Source: Pseudaquabacterium pictum (lineage in GTDB: Bacteria; Pseudomonadota; Gammaproteobacteria; Burkholderiales; Burkholderiaceae_C). Taken from it: a stretch of DNA of 64,000 nt. The position numbers and the translations under genes are program-made. The stretch is from assembly GCF_005403045.1 (NCBI RefSeq), contig NZ_BJCL01000012.1, positions 1 to 64,000 of the forward strand, read 5' to 3'. This document shows, piece after piece, positions 21,903 through 24,110 of this stretch (position 1 is the stretch's first letter; each line of letters opens with the position of its first letter). A model generated the notes under the pieces. That model saw only the letters and a program-made list of their open reading frames with translations, ran no database searches and was not told where the DNA came from.

Positions 21903-24110
21903 TCAGGGCGCCGCGCTGATGCGGTAGATGGCGTTGTCGGTGAGGGAGACGACGTAGAGGCTGCCGTCCGGGCCTTGCTGGATGTCGGTGACCGTGCCGA
22001 AGCCGCGCCCGATGACCATGGTCTCGGTCTCGGTGCCCTCGAATTTCTGGGCGCGGAACTGGTTGTCGATCACCTTGTCGGCCAGGCGCGGGTCGGCGCT
22101 GGTGTCCACGCCCAGGCGGTCGGCCGTGAGCCGCAGGCGGTACAGGCTGCCGCCATTGGCGCCCACCGCCTGGAAGGCGCGTGCCGAGCCGAACCAGAAC
22201 GTGCCGTTGTAGGCCGGGCCCAGCCCATTGCCGTCGACAAAGGCAGCGCCCGACGGGCCGATCTCGTAGCGTGCGCTCAGCTCCGGATCCTTGTAGACAG
22301 CCCCGGGCAGCATGAACAGCCGCGATCCCGCGGCCGCCGGCGTGTAGGACGCCCGGGTCGGCGGGTAGCGCCGCTGCTGCAGCGCCAGGCCGAACTGCGT
22401 GGCCTCGATGGTGCGCCAGTCGCGGATGCGGCTGATCGGGCCGGCGAACTGGATCCAGCCGCCGTTCATGCCGGGCACCAGGCGGTTGATCTCGGAGTAG
22501 GCGTCGTCGGCGTTCTCGGTCAGCCACAGGTAGCCGGTCAGCGGGTCGAAGGCCATGCCGAAGCCGTTGCGGTGGCCGTAGGAGTACAGCTTCTGGATGT
22601 TGGCGCCGACCTCGCCGCCCAGGCTGGCACCCACCCCGAAGAACGGGTTGTCGGGGGGTGTGGTGCCGTCGGTGTTGAGCCGCAGCACCACGCCGGCCAG
22701 GTGGTTGTCGTCGGGCGACGGACCACCGAAGGTGTCGTCCACGAAGGGCGCCACCAGGAAGGGACCGTTGACCAGGTTCTGCAGCCAGCCGCGGCGGCCC
22801 TGGTCGCCGAAGAAGATGTAGAGCTTGCCGTCCGGGCCGATGCGCACCGTGCCGCCGTTGTGGTTGCCCTGGGGGTTGGCATTGGCGGTGGTGGTGGGCT
22901 GGCCCGGCACCGTGGTGTTGTCGGTCTGCAGCGACCGCAGCTTGATGATGTTCTGCCCGAAGGTCAGCGCATTGCCGTCCCAGATGAACATGTCCACCCG
23001 GTTGCCCCGCAGCGGCACGTTCAGCACCACCGGGTTGTCGGCCCCGGTGCTGCTTTCGGTCCAGAAGATGTACACCCGGCCGTTGGCCGAGAACTGCGGG
23101 TCCAGCGCCATGCTCAGCAGGCCGCGTTCGGATGCGGAATTCACTGCCAGGTCCAGCACCGGCGTGGGCAGCAGCGTGCCATTGAGCACCCGCTTGACCT
23201 GGCCCGAGGCCTTCTCGAGCACCAGATAGTCGTTGCGGCCGATGAACACCATGCCGATGGGCTGGCTGACGCCGGTGCCGAGCACCGTGGTCACCTGGAG
23301 CGACGGGTCCAGCAGCGTCAGCGGGGTGGTGTCGGCCAGTGCCGGCCCGGTCAGGCAGGCGGCCACGGCTGCTCCGGCCAGCGCACGGCGCCGCCGGGTG
23401 GCGGCCAGGCCGAGCAGCGCCAGGCCGGCCAGCGTCCAGCTGGCGGGCTCGGGCACCGGCTTGCCCGCGTCCACGAAGCGCACGTTGTCCACGCCCATCT
23501 GGAATTCACCCAGGTTGTCGGTCTCGGCGAAGCGCAGCCGCAGCGACTGGCCGGCATAGGTGGTCATCAGGCTGCTGACATCGACGCTGAAGCTGACATA
23601 GCCGTCGGGCAGGGCCGCGCCATTGGGCGTCTGGTAGAGGTTGAGCAGCACATCGGTGGTCGACACGCTGAAGTCATCGGCGACGCTGTCGAGCAGGATG
23701 TCGATGCGGGCCTGCTGGTTCGGCGCGCCGCTGAAATCCAGTGTGTCCGGACTCGGCACGACCGGCACTGACCAGAAGCTCTTCAGCAGCAGGTCGAACT
23801 TCAACAGCACGTTGGTGCCGGAGGCCGTGAAGCGTTGCCACAACAGGTGGGCGCCCGGGTCGCCGGCGGAATCCGACATGGCCGCCTGGGTGCCTTCGGT
23901 GGGGGCCGCGACCGTGGTGCCGCTCAGGGGGCTGGTGGTGCCGGTCTGGACGCCGAAGCTGCCGCCGTTCACATCGGCGGTCGACCAGCCATTCAGCCCG
24001 CTCTCGAAGCCGCCGTTGGTGAGGACCGGTGTGGCGCCGGCGGGCAGGGCCAGTCCGATGGCCGTGGCCAGCGTGGCGGCCGACAGGGTGACGCGGTGCA
24101 AGGTCTGCAT
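21903..24110 (-). CDS. PEP-CTERM protein fused to a PQQ-dependent sugar-dehydrogenase-like domain
   Basis: A 735-residue protein made of what look like two complete proteins. Residues 1-26 are a signal peptide, and about 27-215 form a jelly-roll domain (NGGFESGLNGWSTAD, ending VDNVRFVDAG). Residues 219-242 are a full PEP-CTERM sorting signal (VPEPASW, hydrophobic helix, RRRR). It does not stop there: a second signal-like stretch (to about 262, GPALA) leads into a GSDH-type six-bladed propeller (263-735). That propeller keeps the probable catalytic His in NHNGGTVRIGPDG, SYGHRNGFGMAFDP, and ERGLLSMALDPQF. ATG 24110 has GGAGGAG upstream. PEP-CTERM proteins are processed by an exosortase/archaeosortase-type system. 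None is in the window. Confidence 0.85.
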   Translation of the reverse strand: MQTLHRVTLSAATLATAIGLALPAGATPVLTNGGFESGLNGWSTADVNGGSFGVQTGTTSPLSGTTVAAPTEGTQAAMSDSAGDPGAHLLWQRFTASGTNVLLKFDLLLKSFWSVPVVPSPDTLDFSGAPNQQARIDILLDSVADDFSVSTTDVLLNLYQTPNGAALPDGYVSFSVDVSSLMTTYAGQSLRLRFAETDNLGEFQMGVDNVRFVDAGKPVPEPASWTLAGLALLGLAATRRRRALAGAAVAACLTGPALADTTPLTLLDPSLQVTTVLGTGVSQPIGMVFIGRNDYLVLEKASGQVKRVLNGTLLPTPVLDLAVNSASERGLLSMALDPQFSANGRVYIFWTESSTGADNPVVLNVPLRGNRVDMFIWDGNALTFGQNIIKLRSLQTDNTTVPGQPTTTANANPQGNHNGGTVRIGPDGKLYIFFGDQGRRGWLQNLVNGPFLVAPFVDDTFGGPSPDDNHLAGVVLRLNTDGTTPPDNPFFGVGASLGGEVGANIQKLYSYGHRNGFGMAFDPLTGYLWLTENADDAYSEINRLVPGMNGGWIQFAGPISRIRDWRTIEATQFGLALQQRRYPPTRASYTPAAAGSRLFMLPGAVYKDPELSARYEIGPSGAAFVDGNGLGPAYNGTFWFGSARAFQAVGANGGSLYRLRLTADRLGVDTSADPRLADKVIDNQFRAQKFEGTETETMVIGRGFGTVTDIQQGPDGSLYVVSLTDNAIYRISAAP

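Follow-up and report, generated by a model that had tools for sequence, protein, structure and literature searches.

By the definition of its family a PEP-CTERM signal stands at the C-terminus of a protein, a position which is near-universal for it (PMC1569441), and the locus described here raises the question of what such a signal does in the middle of an open reading frame. In the window (the whole stretch of 64,000 nucleotides of Pseudaquabacterium pictum that was analysed), a sequence-only reading had described a single frame in which a signal peptide, a jelly-roll domain and a complete PEP-CTERM tail are followed by a second signal-like stretch and a GSDH-type propeller. It had suggested that two genes had lost the stop and start between them, and an anchored module plus a released enzyme if an exosortase cuts at the internal motif. 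The frame runs from an ATG at 24110, with GGAGGAG just 5' of it, to a TGA at 21903-21905 with no stop between the halves, and contains the following features:

21903..24110, minus strand: whole fused gene, 735 aa plus stop (ORF translation; fused homologues)
24033..24110, minus strand: first signal peptide, residues 1-26, ending AGA/T (sequence inspection; helix at 2-21 in the model)
23460..24032, minus strand: module A, CBM-like beta-sandwich, residues 27-217 (AlphaFold2 on 44 homologues, pLDDT 88.5; fold matches)
23385..23456, minus strand: complete PEP-CTERM signal (VPEP, hydrophobic helix, RRRR), residues 219-242 (PF07589, 26.0 bits, over cut-off)
23334..23384, minus strand: h- and c-region of a second signal peptide, residues 243-259, with RRRR as n-region and a predicted signal peptidase I site ALA/D (259/260) (match to the signal peptide carried by the stand-alone enzyme gene of relatives; small-x-Ala present in every fused relative)
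21906..23333, minus strand: module B, GSDH-type beta-propeller, residues 260-735 (PF07995, 121 bits; aligns to soluble quinoprotein glucose dehydrogenases)

The single frame with its internal tail was borne out by the Pfam searches, in which PF07589 (PEP-CTERM) matched residues 218-241 with 26.0 bits against a cut-off of 20.7, and PF07995 (GSDH) matched residues 282-552. The tail has the complete tripartite form known from the PEP-CTERM/exosortase system (PMC1569441), with VPEP at 219-222, a hydrophobic stretch at 223-238 and RRRR at 239-242, and the source genome encodes both XrtA (341 bits) and XrtB (361 bits), each over its cut-off; the difference lies in the 493 residues which follow the tail. 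The XrtA gene (L001:760-2346) has a C-terminal EpsI domain, with the separate XrtB encoded elsewhere. The second signal-like stretch proved to be a near-complete signal peptide which borrows the RRRR of the tail as its n-region, a point absent from the earlier reading: it has the basic n-region, an h-region (243-256) and the ALA/D site expected for signal peptidase I, with the putative cut 37 aa after the PEP, although the hydrophobic segment at this junction is small and was judged by a fixed rule rather than by SignalP. The computed mass of the whole chain is 77.7 kDa, and the two products would be of about 20.5 and 51.1 kDa. The gene is flanked upstream by a CHASE2-cyclase gene on the same strand and downstream by a tyrosine recombinase (phage-integrase family) gene on the other strand, and a search for a sigma-54 promoter upstream of it gave none at two or fewer mismatches.

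The proposed jelly-roll held up as a beta-sandwich: the best fold match of the module A model was a porphyran-binding CBM (Z 14.3), followed by CBM4/16/61 at Z about 13, with MAM and other sandwiches scoring alike. We describe module A as closest to CBM4/16/61-type modules, and as a putative sugar binder. Module B resembles the soluble PQQ glucose dehydrogenases and the GSDH family in its propeller, and its NHNGG, GDQGR and GHRN motifs align with those of 5min/1c9u (catalytic His, PQQ-side Arg/Asn), whereas the remaining PQQ ligands did not align. It is a distant member, for which sugar oxidation and PQQ use are predictions, and TIGR03606 (non_repeat_PQQ, NCBIfam) scored 88.8 bits on the fused protein, below its curated cut-off of 434.55. 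It is plausible that a sugar-binding partner is paired with an enzyme that oxidises sugars at the cell surface. An AlphaFold2 model of the whole precursor from a mixed alignment was poor (pLDDT 45) and was left out of use.

The enzyme half was used as a query over a collection of 84,980 species, which gave 71 loci. In 43 of these a sandwich gene (A) adjoins the enzyme gene (B) in either order, making 44 pairs with the window, and these span the Pseudomonadota, Planctomycetota, Acidobacteriota, Verrucomicrobiota and Rokubacteria. The CBM-like PEP-CTERM protein and the GSDH-type enzyme are a conserved gene pair of at least five phyla (L045-L107). The sequence-only reading had stated that it would be refuted if relatives all had two separate genes, but both states occur: many relatives have the halves as adjacent separate genes, in line with the lost stop and start, and ten of the 19 pairs in A-B order (window included) are in one frame. 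These ten are the window gene, Ideonella sp. A 288, Zoogloea oleivorans (isolate and MAG), Z. dura, Zoogloea SB3, three Methylococcaceae MAGs and a Thiodictyon MAG. The A 288 gene has the same fused frame with 66% identity to the window gene and different flanks, and the four Zoogloea genomes carry compact fusions. There were no fused genes among the 25 pairs in B-A order versus the 10/19 in A-B order (Fisher p 4e-5), but this contrast is not an independent test because the A-B order is close to one clade. Some loci stood apart: in a Methylococcaceae MAG (L079:1424-3379) a stop lies inside the PEP-CTERM helix while the frame continues behind it into the Arg tail and second signal peptide, representing either a broken fusion or a MAG error; in Aquincola tertiaricarbonis (L042:4138-4872, also L075) the sandwich gene lacks a stop after the Arg tail and continues for about 130 codons, which looks like the antisense of the next gene; and a solitary GSDH relative that has a signal peptide of its own (L033:3856-5336, G020:C23) falls into two frames, with the break near 4.55 kb, through a frameshift or an assembly error.

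A tree of the concatenated A and B halves, with the junction excluded, required six changes of the fused state, or five when the doubtful L079 was dropped or treated as fused. A constraint that kept all fused rows together was rejected, as was one that did so for the compact ones (p 0.0056), and a single origin of the fusion was rejected accordingly. Within Zoogloea an unfused pair splits the two fused pairs, and the window gene groups with the unfused Methyloversatilis (97/94), while a joint origin of the window and Ideonella A288 fusions was not rejected (p 0.18). Several fusions are the simplest reading of this tree, although the changes on it can be gains or losses and thus do not fix how many fusions there were. 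In every pair compared, purifying selection acts on both halves, and the dN/dS of the junction was 0.30 for Z. dura/SB3, 0.47 for Z. oleivorans and 0.32 for the CBM96 fusion described below, with a value of about 0.84 for the window gene versus A288, on only 41 codons. Judged from these comparisons, the fusion is real and derived, has recurred and is under selection.

The sequence-only reading had missed that this fusion arose more than once and that the source genome has four more such joins. The position of PEP-CTERM tails was surveyed in that genome. It has 75 PEP-CTERM matches, of which 70 are followed by a stop within 45 aa (mostly 1-5), and the five internal tails are each followed directly by Arg, an h-region, a small-x-Ala site and a secreted-type domain:

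window fused gene: internal tail, then the GSDH-type propeller
C3:514628: internal tail, then a subtilase
C2:570933: internal tail, then another GSDH with its own terminal PEP-CTERM
C16:50124: DVUA0089-family domain and internal tail, then CBM96 and collagen repeats
C3:150131: internal tail, then a second PEP-CTERM protein

The fixed signal-peptide rule found a second signal after 4/5 internal tails (that of the window gene included) versus 2/70 terminal tails when these were translated past their stops (Fisher p 6e-5). Two other species (G010 and G015) also carry the CBM96 fusion, and G003, G004, G007 and G020 have two genes in its place, those of G004 sharing one frame that a single TGA interrupts. 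For the second GSDH fusion, G016 has two adjacent genes; G009 joins the PEP/PEP pair in the reverse order; and no relative of the subtilase fusion was found in the genus. Elsewhere, a PEP-CTERM protein is joined to a PKD protein in G001, and a tandem duplicate is joined in G368. Scans of family and class genomes with a junction profile, a search which finds only fusions with PEP-CTERM upstream, gave few unbroken junctions; since few candidates were scored per genome and the profile was partly trained on the source genome, these scans are no census, although the low yield suggests that internal-tail fusions are rare and that the source genome is an outlier. The PEP/PEP fusion is part of a tandem of three PEP-CTERM units (L146:1036-4079, G000:C3 about 148.0-151.1 kb), in which the stop of the first gene and the start of the second share an ATGA, while units two and three are joined in a single frame. 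Directly upstream of the fused CBM96 gene lies a CBM96/collagen paralogue (G000:C16:48529-49509, L188) which is 77% identical to its downstream half.

By sequence, the window gene is one open frame with a complete internal PEP-CTERM signal and a second signal peptide behind it, descended from separate neighbours, recurrent, and without a usable internal start. Our preferred reading, to which we give a probability of roughly 0.62, is that it is a genuine derived gene fusion encoding a two-protein secretory precursor, from which an exosortase and signal peptidase I would release two proteins. The first signal peptide would export module A, after which the PEP-CTERM helix would thread the chain back across the membrane and leave the Arg cluster in the cytoplasm. 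This cluster would give the second signal peptide its basic n-region, and that peptide would restart export with the enzyme; the exosortase (XrtA or XrtB) would then cut at the PEP and sort or anchor module A, and signal peptidase I would cut at ALA/D and free the enzyme. The products would equal those of the two ancestral genes, made from one chain in a 1:1 ratio. Since the n-region of a signal peptide has to lie in the cytoplasm, an exported domain cannot simply be followed by one, and the supply of such an n-region by the PEP-CTERM helix would explain why the B-A pairs are unfused.

Four other explanations were weighed, two of which would make the long frame an accident. A sequencing or assembly error is one of these, and the sequence-only reading had stated that a sequencing error restoring the stop would refute it; a single base can remove a stop, and the window comes from a draft assembly of 64 contigs. 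The same fused layout is nevertheless present in independent assemblies, isolates included, so that an error is refuted for the family, and the repeated joins, five of them in the source genome and one of the other four common to two other species, make it extremely improbable for the window gene as well. Translation of the enzyme from its own internal start, with the upstream gene merely having lost its stop, has real candidates in the Methylococcaceae MAGs, where the ATG and a GAGG site of the enzyme survive inside the open frame, 30 aa before the cut; this looks like an intermediate stage of the fusion. The compact fusions differ in that the stop, intergenic stretch, start codon and original n-region are all gone and the Arg tail leads directly into the next h-region, with the PEP, helix, Arg and h-region kept and the small-x-Ala site 37-46 aa after the PEP. 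The window gene does have an in-frame GTG with GGAG upstream, but this leaves only 11 aa before ALA/D and no n-region; in the other compact junctions nothing in frame combines a start codon and a ribosome site with a full signal peptide, and the L188 junction has no start at all after the PEP. An internal start was rejected on these grounds, and we regard it as very improbable.

The other two explanations accept the fusion and differ in its processing. In an uncleaved, two-headed membrane protein the PEP-CTERM helix and second signal would form a hairpin anchor which holds sandwich and enzyme together at the inner membrane; the topology allows this, and fusion would ensure that two functionally linked proteins, encoded side by side in 44 loci, stay close together. 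Against this, the small-x-Ala site is kept in all fused genes while the rest of the second h-region has diverged, whereas a plain anchor needs no such site, and both exosortases are present in the genome. We consider this anchor unlikely. Either cut alone would also fit the sequence: signal peptidase I could free the enzyme and leave module A as a membrane protein with a lengthened tail that the exosortase cannot use, or the exosortase could cut and leave the enzyme anchored by the second helix. The near-universal terminal position of PEP-CTERM means that exosortases may need a free end (PMC1569441); on the other side, ArtA accepts a central tail, and every fusion retains the PEP-CTERM tail along with the second signal peptide, which makes a single cut a distinctly improbable alternative. 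A plain linker would need neither the tail nor the second signal, and their joint retention counts for the two-protein precursor. An anchored module and a released enzyme, as had been proposed, remain the best, if putative, reading.

Bacterial precursors with an internal signal sequence are known from the cytochrome b/c1 precursor FbcH of Bradyrhizobium, which is cut by signal peptidase; this is a respiratory membrane protein with no sorting tag or exosortase. Closer to the present case is HVO_0405 of Haloferax volcanii, a natural fusion of two genes whose central tripartite sorting signal is cleaved by the archaeosortase ArtA, a member of the exosortase/archaeosortase family; it is archaeal, described as strain-specific and a Tat substrate, with no second signal peptide after the tail in the description consulted, whereas the window-type fusion recurs and carries one (PMC7157517). 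MXAN_5598 of Myxococcus likewise has an internal sorting tag (MYXO-CTERM) in a probable fusion of two genes for which processing was proposed, but differs in its tag and protease (myxosortase), in being a single case and in being followed by an outer-membrane barrel and OmpA domain (PMC11980579). A literature search, mostly outside subscription journals, gave no description of an internal PEP-CTERM with a signal peptide behind it; one archaeal and one myxobacterial case of the kind are known, and the recurrent bacterial PEP-CTERM/signal-peptide form was not found described in searchable papers.

Exosortase substrates have been defined by their C-terminal tail, and the founding paper of Haft et al. 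(2006) set the rare internal tails aside as possibly non-functional (PMC1569441). Recurrent fusions in which the tail is retained together with a second signal peptide argue for internal tails being functional in bacteria too, as they are with the archaeal ArtA, and since cleavage of such a fusion would give a large shift in size, these natural fused genes could be used to assay bacterial exosortases directly. The fusion appears to be a route by which one chain gives two secreted proteins. With somewhat better than even odds, exosortase-bearing bacteria may repeatedly make polyproteins from neighbouring genes for secreted proteins, with the PEP-CTERM tail as topology reset and cleavage hinge and the exosortase acting on internal signals, so that one chain would yield two independently sorted extracytoplasmic proteins.
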